Origin: Microvirga soli
GTDB lineage: Bacteria > Pseudomonadota > Alphaproteobacteria > Rhizobiales > Beijerinckiaceae
Assembly: GCF_016734765.1 (NCBI RefSeq)
Contig: NZ_JAERQE010000007.1
Location: 107,757 to 171,756 of the forward strand
Direction of reading: 5' to 3'
Length of the DNA stretch: 64,000 nucleotides
Position numbers and translations under genes: made by a program. The notes under the pieces are model-generated. The model saw only the letters and a program-made list of their open reading frames with translations. It did no database searches and was not told the origin of the DNA. The number at the start of each line of letters is the position of its first letter. Position 1 is the stretch's first letter. Shown here piece by piece: positions 6,884-27,473 of this stretch.

Positions 6884-6898
6884 GTTCCTCTATTGTTC
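6884..6898. promoter_or_regulatory. LexA box before YcaQ-like gene
   Basis: GTTC, seven bases, GTTC: the consensus alphaproteobacterial SOS box. It ends five bases before the start codon at 6904. TATTGT inside it could be a -10 element, placing the transcription start at or next to the ATG, so LexA would block the promoter. A DNA-repair gene directly downstream makes the match more credible. Confidence 0.7.
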
Positions 6899-6903
6899 GC
6901 GCC

Positions 6904-8094
6904 ATGCCGTCCCGCACCCACATCACCCTCGCCCAGGCCCGGCGGATCGCGCTGGCTGCCCAAGGCCTTCATGAGGGCCGCCCTGCTGCGGCAACGAAGC
7001 GCCATGTGAGCCGCGCGCTGCAGCGCTCGCACCTGCTCCAGATCGATTCGGTGAACGTGCTGGTGCGCGCCCATTACATGCCGCTGTTCTCGCGGCTCGG
7101 CTCCTATGATCGCGGGCTGCTCGAAAAGGTGGCCTATCACCCGAAGAAGCGGGAAGCCTTCGAGTATTGGGGACACGAGGCCTCGCTGATCCGGCTCGAC
7201 CTGCAGCCGCTCTTCCGCTGGCGCATGGAGCGCGCGGCGCGGGGCGAAGGCACCTATGGCGGTCTTGCGAAGTTCGGGCGCGAGAAGCGCGCCTTCATCG
7301 AGGAGGTGCGCCGCGAGATCGAGACGCGCGGGCCGATCGGTGCCGGCGAGTTGTCCATCGGCGGCAAGGGTCAGGGCTCCTGGTGGGGCTGGAGCGACGG
7401 CAAGCGGGCGCTCGAATGGCTGTTCTGGGCGGGCCAGGTCACCACCGCGACGCGCCGCGGCTTCGAGCGCCTCTACGACCTGCCGGAACGGGTGCTGCCC
7501 TCGGACATCCTGAACGTGCCGACACCATCCGCCGAGGAGGCGCAGCGCGAGCTCATGCGGTTGTCCATCCGGGCGCTGGGCATCGCGTCGGAGCGATGCC
7601 TGCGCGACTATTTCCGCCTGGAGCCGCAGGACGCTAAGGCGCGCATTCCCGAATTAGTGGAGGCGGGCGACCTCATCCCGGTTGCCGTGGATGGCTGGGG
7701 CCCGGTCTATCTCGACCCGCAGGCCAAGATCCCACGCCGGGTCGAGGCACGGGCGCTCGTGTCGCCTTTCGACCCTATCGTCTGGGAGCGCACGCGCACG
7801 GAGCGCCTGTTCGACTTCCGCTACCGGATCGAGATCTACACCCCGGTCGAGAAGCGGGAATTCGGCTATTACTGCCTGCCCTTCGTGCTAGGCGAGCGGA
7901 TCGTCGCCCGCGTCGACCTGAAGGCCGACCGGGCGGCGGGCAATCTCATCGTCCACTCCATCCACCCGGAGGCCTCGGTCCCGCCGGAAGAGATCGCCCC
8001 TGCCCTGGGGGACGAACTGCGCCTCATGGCCGAGTGGCTCAATCTCGGCTCGATCACCGCGCCGAAGGCGTGGCGGAAGCGGCTTGAGGTGTAA
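6904..8094 (+). CDS. YcaQ/AlkX-type DNA glycosylase (winged-helix protein)
   Basis: A 396-residue member of the HTH_42/AlkZ-YcaQ superfamily. The active-site signature is Gln46-Ile-Asp48 (LLQIDSVNV), the QxD form of E. coli YcaQ rather than the QxQ form of Streptomyces AlkZ. Family enzymes unhook DNA interstrand crosslinks made by nitrogen mustards and excise alkylated bases by glycosylase chemistry. The N-terminal helices and the beta-rich C-terminal region match family length. No ribosome site precedes the ATG; with the LexA box ending at 6898 the mRNA may be leaderless. SOS control is inferred from that box. Confidence 0.82.
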   Translation: MPSRTHITLAQARRIALAAQGLHEGRPAAATKRHVSRALQRSHLLQIDSVNVLVRAHYMPLFSRLGSYDRGLLEKVAYHPKKREAFEYWGHEASLIRLDLQPLFRWRMERAARGEGTYGGLAKFGREKRAFIEEVRREIETRGPIGAGELSIGGKGQGSWWGWSDGKRALEWLFWAGQVTTATRRGFERLYDLPERVLPSDILNVPTPSAEEAQRELMRLSIRALGIASERCLRDYFRLEPQDAKARIPELVEAGDLIPVAVDGWGPVYLDPQAKIPRRVEARALVSPFDPIVWERTRTERLFDFRYRIEIYTPVEKREFGYYCLPFVLGERIVARVDLKADRAAGNLIVHSIHPEASVPPEEIAPALGDELRLMAEWLNLGSITAPKAWRKRLEV

Positions 8095-14043: not shown

Positions 14044-14142
14044 GTCATCCCGGGGCTGCGGAGCAGAACCCGGGATCGCGAGACGAGAGTGGCGCCTTAT
14101 CCTGAAAACGATCCCGGATCGGCTTATGCCGTCCGGGATGAC
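14044..14142. repeat. palindromic REP-like element (family A)
   Basis: It starts GTCATCCCGGGGCTGC and ends GCCGTCCGGGATGAC, with ACCCGGGATCG and CGATCCCGGAT facing each other inside. It sits between the convergent osmC and dctP-like genes and could act as a bidirectional terminator or mRNA stabiliser. Near-identical copy at 19225-19323; inverted, interrupted copy at 46498-46716. Confidence 0.88.
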
Positions 14143-17244: not shown

Positions 17245-17595
17245 TTATGATTTCTGGTGGGCGATGACCTTGTCCTTGATCGCGTCATAGGCGTTCTGCG
17301 GGATGATCCCTTTGTCCACCAGTTCGTTCTTGGCCCTGTAGGGGCGTCCCTTGATGATGGCGTCCGCGCGAGCCGATCCGATCTGCGGCAGCCGGTCGAG
17401 TACGTCCTTGGAGGCGGTATTGATGTCGATCAGCGCTTCCTGCGACGATGCCGGGGCAGGCATGGGTTTCGCCGCAGGCGCTGCGCTGGTCGCAGGCGGT
17501 CGCGTCGTGGCGCTTGGTGCCGTTGTCTGAGCGTGAGCCGGAGAGGCAAGCAGCAGGGCAAGCGAGGCAAGGACTCCGAGATAGGACGGGCGCAT
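17245..17595 (-). CDS. secreted helix-hairpin-helix (ComEA-like) protein
   Basis: A 116-residue protein with a signal peptide (YLGVLASLALLLASPAHA), a Pro/Ala/Thr-rich linker, and a C-terminal HhH domain: LIDINTASKDVLDRLPQIGSARADAII. That motif binds DNA without sequence preference in ComEA, the periplasmic DNA receptor of competence. The second hairpin (ELVDKGIIPQNAYDAIKDKV) is of the type seen in short secreted HhH proteins of Rhizobiales. The ATG at 17595 follows AGGAGACG. Competence or another extracytoplasmic role is inferred only. Confidence 0.8.
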   Translation of the reverse strand: MRPSYLGVLASLALLLASPAHAQTTAPSATTRPPATSAAPAAKPMPAPASSQEALIDINTASKDVLDRLPQIGSARADAIIKGRPYRAKNELVDKGIIPQNAYDAIKDKVIAHQKS

Positions 17596-17969
17596 CGAAC
17601 GTCTCCTTTGATTCACGGGTCCCATTCCGGCCGAAATGGCTGCCGGAGAACCCGACTTCGCGCATGAACAACCTTTTGCCCTCCATTCAGTTCAGCTTGC
17701 CCGATCCTCAGCCTTCCAAACTGTCCCTGCCTTCTCAAGCAATCGACCCAAGGACCGACCAATTCTACGAGCCCTTTGAGGCTCTCCCCTGATGATCGGT
17801 GAATGGCTCAGCATGGGGAAGGGGCTGCTTCTCAAGAAGGGTGAGCCACACAGGCTTTCGGGCTCGGTTGAAGCCAAGGTTCATGATCTGACTGAAACCT
17901 GTTCCTACGGCAGACATGCGACCTCCCGCCCCCTCCCGGGACCCTCGCCAGCACCCTATCTTCATGCTA

Positions 17970-17984
17970 GAACAAAACACGAAC
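17970..17984. promoter_or_regulatory. LexA box before radical SAM-UdgX genes
   Basis: GAAC, seven bases, GAAC, the alphaproteobacterial SOS box, ending 17 bases before the ATG at 18002. The downstream pair belongs to DNA-repair-associated families, so LexA repression is a reasonable reading. Confidence 0.75.
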
Positions 17985-18001
17985 AATCCTGCGGAAGACC
18001 G

Positions 18002-19216
18002 ATGGACGAGAAGCTTTCGAAGAAGCTGCGCATCCTGGCGGACGCGGCCAAGTATGATGCCTCCTGCTCCTCCTCCGGGGCCCCCAAGCGCAAGTCGGAT
18101 CCCGACGGCCTCGGCTCCACGGTGGGAACCGGCATCTGCCACGCCTACACGCCGGACGGGCGCTGCGTGTCCCTGCTCAAGATCCTGCTGACGAACTACT
18201 GCCTGTTCGACTGCGCCTATTGCGTGAACCGGCGCTCGTCCAACGTGAAGCGAGCCAAGTTCTCGGTCGACGAGGTGGTGACGCTCACGGTGGAGTTCTA
18301 CAAGCGCAACTACATCGAGGGCCTGTTCCTCTCGTCGGGCATCATCCGCTCGCCCGACTACACCATGGAGCAGATGATCCTGGTGGCGAAGAAGCTGCGC
18401 CGCGACCATGGCTTTCGCGGCTATATCCACCTGAAGACGATCCCCGAGGCGAGCCCCTGGCTCATCGAGGAGGCGGGCCTGTGGGCCGACCGCCTGTCGA
18501 TCAACTTGGAACTGCCGACGGAGAAGAGCCTGGAGCAGCTTGCGCCCGAGAAGGACGGTGCCTCCATCGAGACCGCCATGGCGCAGATGTCGGAGCGCAT
18601 CGAGGAGGCGCGCGAGGAGCGGCGCCATTTCTCGCCGGCCGGCCAGACCACGCAGATGATCGTCGGGGCCGACGAGACCACGGACGCGGATGTGTTGCGC
18701 AAATCCGCCACGCTCTACGGCCATTACGCTATGAAGCGGGTGTATTACTCGGCCTTCAGCCCCATCCCGGATTCGAGCGCGATCCTGCCGCTCAAATCGC
18801 CGCCGCTCATGCGCGAGAACAGGCTGTACCAGGCCGATTGGCTGCTGCGCTATTACGGCTTCGATGTGGACGAGATCGCATCAAGCGCCGAGAAGGGCAT
18901 GCTCGACCTCGATGTCGACCCCAAGCTCGCCTGGGCGCTCAAGAACCGCCACCGCTTCCCGGTCGACGTGAACCTGGCCGACCGGGAGATGCTGCTGCGC
19001 GTGCCGGGCCTCGGGGCGCGTGCCGTCGACAAGATCGTGGTGGCGCGCAAGCACACGACCCTGCGCCTGGAGGATGTGGCCCGCCTCACCTCGGGGTTGA
19101 AACGCGCCAAGCCCTTCCTGATCACGGCCGATCATCACCCGAAGGCCAGGCTCGACAAGCTCGACTTGCGCGAACGGCTGATCGAGAAGCCGGAACAGCT
19201 GAGCTTGTTCGTATGA
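18002..19216 (+). CDS. radical SAM protein linked to UdgX (putative DNA modification/repair)
   Basis: A 404-residue radical SAM enzyme. The 4Fe-4S cysteines are Cys67, Cys71 and Cys74 (CLFDCAYC, CX3CX2C). It has the invariant SSGIIRSPDYTMEQM segment and a C-terminal helix-hairpin-helix (VNLADREMLLRVPGLGARAVDKI) that suggests DNA contact. This fits the family of putative DNA modification/repair radical SAM proteins encoded next to UDG-like genes; the reaction is unknown. The ATG at 18002 follows GGAAG; the open frame continues 70 codons upstream through the LexA box, which argues against a longer start. The UdgX gene follows after a repeat. Confidence 0.88.
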   Translation: MDEKLSKKLRILADAAKYDASCSSSGAPKRKSDPDGLGSTVGTGICHAYTPDGRCVSLLKILLTNYCLFDCAYCVNRRSSNVKRAKFSVDEVVTLTVEFYKRNYIEGLFLSSGIIRSPDYTMEQMILVAKKLRRDHGFRGYIHLKTIPEASPWLIEEAGLWADRLSINLELPTEKSLEQLAPEKDGASIETAMAQMSERIEEAREERRHFSPAGQTTQMIVGADETTDADVLRKSATLYGHYAMKRVYYSAFSPIPDSSAILPLKSPPLMRENRLYQADWLLRYYGFDVDEIASSAEKGMLDLDVDPKLAWALKNRHRFPVDVNLADREMLLRVPGLGARAVDKIVVARKHTTLRLEDVARLTSGLKRAKPFLITADHHPKARLDKLDLRERLIEKPEQLSLFV

Positions 19217-19224
19217 GCGTGGCT

Positions 19225-19323
19225 GTCATCCCGGGGCTGCGCAGCAGAACCCGGGATCGCTTGACGAGAATAGCGCCATATCCTGCACACGATCCCGGAT
19301 CGGCTTTCGCCGTCCGGGATGAC
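19225..19323. repeat. palindromic REP-like element (family A)
   Basis: Second copy of the element at 14044-14142, with the same GTCATCCCGGGGCTGC and CCGTCCGGGATGAC ends and a near-identical middle. It lies between the radical SAM and UdgX genes, so it may differentially stabilise the two halves of their mRNA. Confidence 0.88.
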
Positions 19324-19336
19324 CATTGAAGCTCCC

Positions 19337-20776
19337 ATGACCCTCCACCGCATCATCCTCAAGACCGGCGCGGATCTCCACGGCTTCCGCAAGGCCGTAC
19401 GCTGGCTGATCGCCGAGGAACTGGCGCCGCAGCATGTGGTGTTCGCCATCGACGATGCGCCGGGCCTCTTCGGCGACGAGACGGTTATGGATGCACCGCC
19501 GGTCTCGATCCCGAAGGGTGTGTCGCGCCTCATCGAGCAGGTGGTTTGCCACGGCGATCCCGAGCGTTATGCCCTGCTTTACGGCCTTGTCTGGCGTGTT
19601 CTGAACGGCGAGCGCGATCTTCTCGAAGTCGCGAGCGACCCGCTGGTTCACCGCATCGACCTGATGGCCCGCTCCGTGCGGCGTGACCTGCACAAGATGC
19701 ACGCCTTCGTGCGCTTCCGCCGGATGCAAGGAGAGCTTGAGCGCTTCGCCGCCTGGTTCGAGCCGGAGCATTTCATTCTCGAAGCGGCGGCGCCCTTCTT
19801 CGTCGACCGCTTCCGTTCCATGGACTGGACGATCCTCACGCCCATCGGTTCCACGCGCTGGGACCGGCATGAGCTGACCTTCGGGCCTCCCGGGCGGCGC
19901 GAGGATGCCCCGGATGAGGACAGCTTCGAGGAGGGCTGGCGCGGCTATTACGAGAGCGTGTTCAACCCGGCCAGGGTGAACCCCACGGCCATGCGGGCCG
20001 AGATGCCGAAGAAGTACTGGCGCAACATGCCCGAGACCGCCGCGATCCCGGGCCTGATCCAAACCGCCGCTCAGCGCGTTGAACGGATGATCGAACAGGA
20101 GGCGACGATGCCCACCAAACGCACGCCCGAACGCGCTATTCAAGCCATGTGGGATCAGGAACCCAAGACCCTCGAAGAGCTCAATGCCATCATCGCCAAG
20201 GCAGGACCGCTGGTGCCCGGCGCCACGCAGGCCGTCTTCGGCGAAGGCCCGCATCATGCCGAGATCGTGTTCGTCGGCGAACAGCCGGGCGACCAGGAGG
20301 ACCTGCAGGGACGGCCCTTCGTGGGTCCCGCGGGCAAGCTCCTGACCAAGGCCATGAGGGAAGCCGGGATCGAACGTGAGCAGGCCTATCTCACCAATGC
20401 GGTGAAGCACTTCAAATTCGACCAGCGCGGCCACCGGCGCATCCACGCCAAGCCGACCGCCGGCGAGGTGAAGCATTACCGGCCCTGGCTGATGAAGGAG
20501 CTGGAGCTGGTGCGGCCCAAGCTCATCGTCGCTCTGGGGGCCACGGCCGTTCTGGCGCTCTCCGGCAAGGCGACGCCGATCACCCGCTCGCGCGGCCGCG
20601 CCAAGTTCGGTGCTTACGAGGGCTACATCACCGTGCATCCGAGTTACCTGCTGCGCCTGCCCGACGAGGCGACGAAGCAGGAAGCCTACGAGGCATTTCT
20701 GAATGACCTGCGCCGCATTCATGACTTGGCACAGGCCGATCTGAACACCGGCGAGCTGCCGCTCGCGGCGGAGTAG
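19337..20776 (+). CDS. UdgX-type uracil-DNA glycosylase fused to N-terminal DUF4130-like domain
   Basis: A 479-residue two-domain protein. Residues about 1-255 match the domain that accompanies UdgX-linked radical SAM proteins. Residues about 260-479 are a family-4-like UDG: motif A GEQPGDQED (314-322), RPFVGPAGKLL, and the UdgX-specific RRIH loop (367-370). In mycobacterial UdgX the histidine of this loop attacks the abasic sugar and stays covalently bound to DNA, so His370 is the expected nucleophile. An ATG at 19319 lies inside the repeat and is less likely. The pair should handle uracil or damage-derived lesions under SOS control. Confidence 0.9.
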   Translation: MTLHRIILKTGADLHGFRKAVRWLIAEELAPQHVVFAIDDAPGLFGDETVMDAPPVSIPKGVSRLIEQVVCHGDPERYALLYGLVWRVLNGERDLLEVASDPLVHRIDLMARSVRRDLHKMHAFVRFRRMQGELERFAAWFEPEHFILEAAAPFFVDRFRSMDWTILTPIGSTRWDRHELTFGPPGRREDAPDEDSFEEGWRGYYESVFNPARVNPTAMRAEMPKKYWRNMPETAAIPGLIQTAAQRVERMIEQEATMPTKRTPERAIQAMWDQEPKTLEELNAIIAKAGPLVPGATQAVFGEGPHHAEIVFVGEQPGDQEDLQGRPFVGPAGKLLTKAMREAGIEREQAYLTNAVKHFKFDQRGHRRIHAKPTAGEVKHYRPWLMKELELVRPKLIVALGATAVLALSGKATPITRSRGRAKFGAYEGYITVHPSYLLRLPDEATKQEAYEAFLNDLRRIHDLAQADLNTGELPLAAE

Positions 20777-26657: not shown

Positions 26658-27401
26658 TCACCCAATGCGATGCAGCGCGCTGCCGTAGGTCTTGAGCCAG
26701 GCTTCCGCCTCGTCGGTGCGGGGGCAGAGCTGGTGGGTGATTTTCCAGAAGCGGTGGGAATGGTTGAGCTCGCGCAGGTGCGCCACCTCGTGAGCGGCGA
26801 GGTAGTCGAGCACGAAGGGCGGGGCCATGATCAGGCGCCAGGAGAAATTGAGCGCTCCATTGGCCGAGCAGGAGCCCCAGCGGCTCTTGGTGTCGCGCAC
26901 GGTGATGCGCTTGGCCGAGACGCCGAGCTGGGCCGTGTGCTTCTTCACAGCGGCGGCAAAGTCCTTCTTGGCCTCTGCCTCGAGGAAATCCCGCACCCGG
27001 CGGGCCACGTGGGAAGCCTCGCCGGCCACCGCGATGATCGGCTCGCCCGCGCTGCCGCGGCCGGCCTGGGTCACGCCGCGGATCGAGGACCAGTGGACGA
27101 TCCGGTGGAGGACACCGCGAACGGGCACCAGCGCACCCGGCTCGAAGATCACCCGCTCGGGCACCTTGGCGAGACGGGTGGCGATCCACTGGCTGTGGCT
27201 GTCGGCGAATTTCTGGGCCAGCCCCACATCGGTGCGCTCAGGGATCGACAGCACGACCTCGCCGGTCGCGTTGGAGACGCGCAGCGTGATCCGTTTGGCC
27301 GTGGGACGGCGCTTGAGGGCCACCTTAAAGGCTTGGCCCTCATGCAGAACTTTGAGATGAGGCGGGTCCGCAGGGACGCGGCGGAACAGGGCGGATTTCA
27401 T
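26658..27401 (-). CDS. YgjP-type metallopeptidase (DUF45)
   Basis: A 247-residue zinc peptidase-like protein. The catalytic signature is HEVAHLRELNHSHRFW: HExxH plus a third histidine downstream; RDTKSRWGSC precedes it as in the YgjP/UPF family. Substrates are unknown, but the fold is related to SprT/Wss1 proteases that remove DNA-protein crosslinks. The start at 27401 (MKSALFRR) is chosen over an open extension of 62 codons that would cross the phaZ stop region. A LexA-box match lies 58 bases upstream. Confidence 0.83.
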   Translation of the reverse strand: MKSALFRRVPADPPHLKVLHEGQAFKVALKRRPTAKRITLRVSNATGEVVLSIPERTDVGLAQKFADSHSQWIATRLAKVPERVIFEPGALVPVRGVLHRIVHWSSIRGVTQAGRGSAGEPIIAVAGEASHVARRVRDFLEAEAKKDFAAAVKKHTAQLGVSAKRITVRDTKSRWGSCSANGALNFSWRLIMAPPFVLDYLAAHEVAHLRELNHSHRFWKITHQLCPRTDEAEAWLKTYGSALHRIG

Positions 27402-27458: not shown

Positions 27459-27473
27459 GAACGTATCAAGAAC
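27459..27473. promoter_or_regulatory. possible LexA box before YgjP-type peptidase
   Basis: GAAC, seven bases, GAAC, in the short gap between the phaZ stop and the peptidase start, about 60 bases before the latter. SOS control of a protease related to crosslink-repair enzymes would make sense, but this is inference from position. Confidence 0.5.

Follow-up and report, generated by a model that had tools for sequence, protein, structure and literature searches.

LexA control has been inferred for a two-gene COG1573-COG4277 operon in the Bacteroidetes, and the passages of PMC8565304 that deal with it cite earlier reports of SOS control for a system of this sort from Verrucomicrobia and Alphaproteobacteria. 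In Clostridium acetobutylicum, the pair CAC3343-CAC3344 consists of a radical S-adenosylmethionine (SAM) 'DNA modification/repair' gene and one further gene, with LexA control predicted from footprints and expression (section on this pair in PMC3828012). For the domain DUF4130, the relevant passage of PMC3765255 predicts an enzyme related to mutagenesis and draws a link to uracil-DNA glycosylases (UDGs) and to radical SAM proteins resembling SplB, and a portion of PMC13130816 records an Acinetobacter gene of this name as up-regulated on drying. UdgX of Mycobacterium smegmatis (MsmUdgX) and the family 4 enzymes carry a 4Fe-4S cluster, according to the pertinent part of PMC10359453, and H109 of MsmUdgX is given as the cross-linking histidine in the corresponding parts of PMC10359453 and PMC10776899. 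The present analysis concerns a radical SAM gene and a DUF4130-UdgX fusion gene of Microvirga soli, which lie side by side behind a predicted LexA box in a stretch of 64,000 nucleotides (contig NZ_JAERQE010000007.1), referred to below as the window.

COG4277 is presumably the same family as TIGR03916, to which the radical SAM gene of the window belongs. Neither the gene pair nor its predicted regulation is new: both are already known, and predicted LexA control of the operon is already in print. Judging from the sequence, the two genes are likely to form one SOS-controlled operon, and the reading favoured here, at a probability of roughly 0.55, is that a core of radical SAM enzyme and DUF4130 protein repairs damaged DNA bases by radical chemistry with a predicted second iron-sulfur cluster, UdgX being an optional uracil-capturing helper. 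The focus of interest thereby passes from UdgX to the core of radical SAM enzyme and DUF4130.

The initial annotation had read an exact GAAC-N7-GAAC box ahead of the radical SAM gene as a sign of SOS control, and the box is there as described: GAACAAAACACGAAC ends 17 bases 5' of the ATG at 18002. A single box is weak proof, since the window holds six exact matches against 1.4 expected; it is more than chance because it is conserved before orthologues. When the window is aligned with 23 Microvirga loci, all eight bases of the half-sites agree in 24/24 rows, compared with mean identity counts of 21.4 for the spacer and 18.6 for the flanks. The same box stands upstream of lexA and of three recA-family genes in the same genome. 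These three genes (L114, L115 and L116) all lie above the family cut-off, and each has an exact SOS-type box upstream. A sigma-70 promoter scan of 17850-18050 found none.

The orthologue set was the 80 loci kept of 204 found. A LexA box fitting the clade precedes 73 of the 80 orthologues. The alphaproteobacterial set comprises 56 loci, 55 named as such plus L050, a 'Proteobacteria bacterium' assigned from its box and its tree position. In this set a box was counted when it fell within -100..+15 of the radical SAM start; the background in the same loci is 0.0024 expected per 115 bp, with boxes before 8 of 431 other mechanically called open reading frames (ORFs). The box that the initial annotation suggested looking for before orthologues is present in 55 of these 56 rather than absent (54/55 without L050), the sole miss being L037 (Roseomonas), and it precedes the gene in 10/10 enzyme-positive genomes of a separate draw of 190 alphaproteobacterial genomes, the M. 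soli genome among them. A GTTC-N7-GTTC operator near the start and kept in orthologues, the mark of the alphaproteobacterial LexA regulon, is thus found at this locus.

Beyond the Alphaproteobacteria the type of motif differs by clade. CTGT-N8-ACAG, which we take to be the beta/gamma-type LexA operator, precedes all 16 Burkholderiaceae loci and the gammaproteobacterial L042, and GTTC-N4-GAAC, presumably the operator type of its clade, lies upstream in the verrucomicrobial L061. The latter motif was found before three of the eight Verrucomicrobiota genes over the family cut-off (one of them, L188, from the genome of L061). Six clostridial or clostridial-like loci show an exact GAAC-N4-GTTC no more than 250 bp upstream in three cases, a one-mismatch form in two and none in one, and the 47.5 kb of this DNA contain five exact sites, every one of them 5' of the radical SAM gene. 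In L121 the site overlaps the start as annotated; in L122 the sites are 156-185 bp away, ahead of a small annotated ORF. L109 stood outside the box scans, and L123 and L124 were covered upstream of the gene only. Taken together, SOS control of the radical SAM/DUF4130-UdgX genes is well supported as a prediction, as the initial annotation had proposed.

The fusion gene adjoins the radical SAM gene downstream, and its composition is much as first annotated, a conserved N-terminal domain joined to a UdgX-type glycosylase. The former is DUF4130 (TIGR03915, 202.9 bits against a cut-off of 112.25; Pfam DUF4130, 139.5 bits), and the latter matches Pfam UDG at 119.4 bits, with HRRIH at residues 366-370. 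DUF4130 is encoded on the same strand, no more than about 1.2 kb downstream, in 78/80 loci, at a distance of about 1 kb in L037, L050, L056 and L072; the two loci without it are L035, where the contig ends, and L073, where none was found. UdgX follows the radical SAM gene in 71/80. It was not found in L035, L039-L042, L053, L054, L061 and L073, nine of the 80 loci and eight of the 79 testable ones, and none of the seven genomes of UdgX-less, DUF4130-bearing loci (L039-L042, L053, L054 and L061) has a UdgX over the family cut-off. The genome of L073 encodes a UdgX elsewhere, and that of L035 a below-cut-off match only.

The separate draw, to which family cut-offs were applied, gives a similar picture. 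Ten genomes were enzyme-positive and ten DUF4130-positive, with nine common to both (in G045 the enzyme gene lies at a contig end), and four of the ten DUF4130 genes are not fused to UdgX. UdgX itself exceeds its cut-off in 16 of the 190 genomes: six copies are fused beside the enzyme, one is unlinked (G033) and nine occur in genomes without the pair. The box is kept where UdgX is not fused (G033, G162 and G175) and where it is not found (L041, L042 and L061). Pairs from Phocaeicola, Fusobacterium, Acinetobacter, Lachnospira, Pusillibacter and Parabacteroides likewise show no UdgX in the stretch examined. The fixed linkage to UdgX that the initial annotation assumed therefore does not hold. 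Because DUF4130 is near-constant, UdgX variable and the box kept without UdgX, the SOS-linked unit appears to be the radical SAM gene with DUF4130, and on gene content DUF4130 is the near-constant partner and UdgX an optional add-on. Among relatives of the Lachnospira DUF4130 protein, PF13566 is the sole precomputed Pfam domain in the 120 listed of 510; long candidates (more than 1.75 times the query) were unscored, so this set was not used on the matter of fusions. A fold search of the PDB with the whole fusion model returned UDG-type chains throughout the 50 matches listed.

Three loci in this comparison merit a separate remark. In G182 (L091), what stands beside DUF4130 is just a C-terminal piece of the radical SAM gene (profile positions 270-399), perhaps a decaying pair. 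A Gemmatimonadaceae bin (L053, 2557-4422) has DUF4130 (201 bits) fused to another C-terminal domain that by eye is DUF72/YecE-like, and in a clostridial-like clone (L110, 7079-9460) the gene after the pair looks by eye like a DinG/Rad3-type helicase.

The radical SAM enzyme, whose nearest loci (L001-L006) are 97-100% identical, was correctly placed in a family with no known reaction: none was found reported in the open-licence literature, nor was any paper found there that treats UdgX together with radical SAM. The assignment itself stands (TIGR03916, CX3CX2C motif), and of the C-terminal helix-hairpin-helix (HhH) domain first annotated, a Pfam match below cut-off is what is seen; that match and the SOS box together point to a link with DNA. 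Beyond the SAM cluster motif, 58 of the 59 enzymes aligned have three extra cysteines spaced C22-X23-C46-X8-C55; the one that departs from this, L111, does not reach the family cut-off. Verrucomicrobiota offer an internal comparison: the enzymes over the cut-off have C22, C46 and C55 in 8/8 and DUF4130 in 7/8, compared with C46/C55 in 0/22 and DUF4130 in 0/22 among below-cut-off relatives, for which the stretch with about 1.5 kb of flank was covered. The joint absence of C46/C55 and DUF4130 from these relatives leads to the prediction, again from sequence, that C22, C46 and C55 hold a second iron-sulfur cluster that works with DUF4130. These relatives (L192-L213) are related to TIGR03916 and make up another radical SAM family within the phylum of L061. 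Search by sequence yielded no solved structure for the protein at E 0.1; the nearest folds of its predicted model are lipoyl synthase and HydE, with MiaB also among the matches.

The UdgX domain has all the motifs of its class, namely GEQPG as motif A, the RRIH R-loop (here HRRIH) and HPS as motif B, and ten published catalytic positions are all intact (E315, Q316, D319, D322, F328, N354, K357, R368, H370 and H434). Across 46 UdgX-bearing proteins nine of the positions are kept in 46/46 and D59 in 44/46; near copies (93% and 92% identity) had been thinned before alignment, and 45 of 58 initial rows, those containing GEQP, were used for these positions and the tree, which makes two of the ten invariant by choice. 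L027 (GEQAG), which has all ten positions and no cysteine trio, was added to the counts and stands outside the tree. This trio, CxxC plus C, probably provides cluster ligands, and no fourth ligand was picked out. It is whole in 29 of the 46 proteins, wholly absent from 17 and partial in none, and the window domain contains no cysteine, so that the 4Fe-4S cluster expected of a UdgX has no ligands of this kind. On the tree of 45 proteins the absence requires three separate changes, in a clade of 14 that includes Microvirga, in Maritimibacter (L034) and in Roseomonas (L037). With a 4Fe-4S cluster on record for MsmUdgX and for family 4 (PMC10359453), the absences are most simply read as losses with the catalytic residues kept. 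The predicted fold of the domain matches MsmUdgX (6ajp) at 44% identity with a TM-score by target of 0.87, and on sequence the protein is classed as a cluster-less UdgX-like variant, not a typical UdgX.

How far the favoured reading, repair by a radical SAM-DUF4130 core, can be carried depends on several observations that weigh against it. The 80 loci are not independent within genera, 23 being Microvirga and 14 Caballeronia. No tried motif was found near the start in L037, L039, L040, L052, L053, L054 and L065, in five of the eight over-cut-off Verrucomicrobiota loci, or close to the start in two Bacteroidetes (L106, L125), Fusobacterium (L107), Acinetobacter (L108) and Gemmatirosa (L111). 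Of the seven loci that have DUF4130 and lack UdgX only three show a box, none being recognised in L039, L040, L053 and L054. The HhH match (PF12836, HHH_3) scores 21.6 bits against a Pfam cut-off of 27 (E 2.4e-4). All 22 below-cut-off paralogues keep a cysteine at position 22 (CAC), which leaves only C46 and C55 specific, and with a flank of about 1.5 kb per locus in the genome-search loci a more distant DUF4130 would escape. The predicted model has low confidence where the extra cysteines lie, with a predicted local distance difference test (pLDDT) score of 50-59 per 10-residue block over residues 21-60, and in the fold search many radical SAM enzymes fit about equally.

Against this background the alternatives can be compared. 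Chance occurrence of the box, with no SOS control of the genes, would accord with the excess of matches in the window, some without an evident target gene, and is extremely improbable given conservation in 55/56, 16/16 and 10/10 loci with clade-specific LexA-type motifs. The initial annotation had gone further, proposing a two-step pathway: covalent trapping of uracil sites by UdgX, followed by radical SAM remodelling of the base or of the adduct between protein and DNA, both proteins acting only together. One gene pair with a shared box, the catalytic positions kept across the UdgX proteins and the frequency with which UdgX follows would all suit such a partnership; it is very unlikely as the core function, because the link to UdgX is not fixed. 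Boxed pairs occur without UdgX or without a fused one, 7/7 genomes of UdgX-less, DUF4130-bearing loci have none over cut-off, 9/190 genomes have UdgX and no pair, and the clostridial, Bacteroidetes, Fusobacterium and Acinetobacter pairs lack it in the stretch examined.

Direct reversal of pyrimidine lesions in the manner of spore photoproduct lyase (SPL) would account for UdgX, as a deaminated-cytosine lesion would leave a uracil for it to remove, and would agree with the SOS box and with the link between DUF4130 and SplB-like radical SAM photolyases drawn in the passage of PMC3765255. This is nevertheless unlikely: no SPL family is among the NCBIfam matches at E 0.01, the enzyme has cysteines additional to those of the SAM cluster, the pair occurs in gut anaerobes, and the nearest folds are lipoyl synthase and HydE (SPL is not among the 50 fold matches listed, which excludes nothing). 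Its occurrence in these anaerobes also makes it less plausible that a UV photoproduct is the sole substrate. Quite unlikely, too, is a role in modifying DNA, or RNA including tRNA, with SOS control reflecting some function other than repair. The NCBIfam name does say 'modification/repair', and the fold matches include MiaB, which has two clusters and modifies tRNA. Against such a role stand the LexA-type boxes conserved across several phyla, the HhH match and the fusion to a uracil-DNA glycosylase domain.

If the radical SAM-DUF4130 core is indeed a repair enzyme, a sequence of events can be proposed. LexA would bind the box and repress the genes until DNA damage induces them; the HhH and DUF4130 would then present DNA to the radical SAM enzyme, where cleavage of SAM at C67/C71/C74 would generate a 5'-deoxyadenosyl radical acting on the base lesion. 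A second cluster, predicted to be held by C22, C46 and C55, might orient the substrate or join in the chemistry, and UdgX, where present, may remove uracil near the lesion and cap the abasic site through H370. A broader proposal, tentative and somewhat short of an even chance, is that radical SAM-DUF4130 repairs DNA by an undescribed radical chemistry, as an enzyme of two subunits and two clusters, for which SOS control was kept although the LexA operator changed several times between Clostridia and Alphaproteobacteria, while Proteobacteria and Planctomycetes added a suicide uracil glycosylase that in some lineages later became cluster-less. The family is a widespread one behind SOS-type boxes, and no reaction was found reported for it in the open-licence literature. 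C46 and C55 are the residues to mutate, and the relatives without C46/C55 and without DUF4130 form a natural control. The cysteine-free UdgX could reveal whether suicide capture of uracil depends on the cluster and, if active, may serve as an oxygen-robust tool for mapping uracil in DNA.

Table 1. Features of the radical SAM and DUF4130-UdgX genes, in window coordinates
Feature	Position	Strand	Basis or remark
Predicted LexA (SOS) box, GAACAAAACACGAAC	17970..17984	+	exact GAAC-N7-GAAC; half-sites kept in Microvirga
Radical SAM gene, TIGR03916 (rSAM_link_UDG), 404 aa, ATG 18002	18002..19216	+	567 bits against cut-off 343.5
Region with three extra conserved cysteines, C22, C46 (then H47) and C55	18065..18166	+	predicted ligands of a second iron-sulfur cluster
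CX3CX2C radical SAM cluster motif (C67, C71, C74)	18200..18223	+	59/59 aligned; PF04055 (Radical_SAM), 30.7 bits, over cut-off
C-terminal helix-hairpin-helix, likely DNA-binding	18959..19054	+	PF12836 (HHH_3), residues 320-351, below cut-off
Palindromic repeat element, 99 bp, between the two genes	19225..19323	.	inverted CCGGGATGAC ends
DUF4130-UdgX fusion gene, 479 aa	19337..20776	+	TIGR03915, 202.9 bits; TIGR03914, 302.2 bits; both over cut-off
DUF4130 / TIGR03915 domain	19370..20038	+	profile matches
UdgX domain, no cysteine	20045..20719	+	TIGR03914; predicted fold matches MsmUdgX
R-loop HRRIH, predicted cross-linking H370 (MsmUdgX H109)	20432..20446	+	alignment; role of H109 from PMC10359453, PMC10776899

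As for gene limits, a longer mechanical ORF from 17792 is unlikely to be the radical SAM gene, the orthologues beginning at residues coded from 18002, and ATG 19337 is preferred over 19319 for the fusion gene because the latter falls inside the repeat. A related copy of the 99-bp repeat lies 5 kb away at 14044-14142. Some Microvirga have a gap of about 0-3 bp between the two genes, whereas in others it reaches about 257 bp, and since its length varies in this way, repeat elements may have entered it repeatedly. The divergent neighbour of the radical SAM gene (17245-17625, minus strand) encodes a small HHH_3-domain protein with an apparent signal peptide, ComEA-like.

Two further genes of the window have a box. 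An AlkZ-like DNA glycosylase gene (6904-8094, plus strand; PF06224, 234 bits) has an exact GTTC-N7-GTTC at 6884-6898, ending 5 bp before the ATG; the box occurs in 9/19 genomes of the genus, the M. soli genome included, and upstream of none of five matches outside it, a tenth hit (L153) being an artefact of a fragmentary match. A YgjP-like metallopeptidase gene (26658-27401, minus strand; PF01863, 166 bits) has its box at 27459-27473, which leaves 57 bp to the likely ATG (27401); the box is kept, with hardly any shift in position, in 16/19 genomes of the genus and in 0/11 outside.

Other origins for the pair were considered and set aside. Neither protein matches PADLOC at E 0.01, which speaks against a defence system. 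Ten phage records match; two are 240 kb Acinetobacter 'phage' contigs, of which the one inspected looks chromosomal, and the remaining eight are faecal clones listed as 'Bacteriophage sp.' without annotation (two inspected). On the inspected contig, Acinetobacter phage MD-2021a (L108, 240 kb), there are glyS, glyQ and a gene for an acyl-CoA dehydrogenase.

Set beside characterised enzymes, the window proteins combine familiar and distinct elements. The auxiliary-cluster motif of lipoyl synthase is CX4CX5C, which the window enzyme does not contain; it differs from this and other two-cluster radical SAM enzymes by its C-X23-C-X8-C spacing, C-terminal HhH and DUF4130 partner. SplB is alike in being an SOS-linked radical SAM DNA repair enzyme; the cysteine pattern of SPL differs, and the window enzyme has no SPL family match at E 0.01. 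SplB-like enzymes are also the named partners of DUF4130 in the passage of PMC3765255. MsmUdgX shares with the window domain the GEQPG, TNAV, KRRIH-type loop and HPS motifs and the ten catalytic positions, whereas it has a 4Fe-4S cluster and PDB chains of 205-229 residues and the window domain is cysteine-free and fused to DUF4130. CAC3343-CAC3344 is likewise a radical SAM gene with one partner under predicted LexA control; the section of PMC3828012 on this pair labels the second gene as of unknown function and mentions no UdgX. Closest of all in outline, the COG1573-COG4277 operon is also a two-gene UDG operon under predicted LexA control, and the window genes pass the TIGR03916, TIGR03915 and TIGR03914 cut-offs; the passages of PMC8565304 treat it as UDG-based excision, whereas in the loci compared here UdgX is optional and DUF4130 is the near-constant partner.

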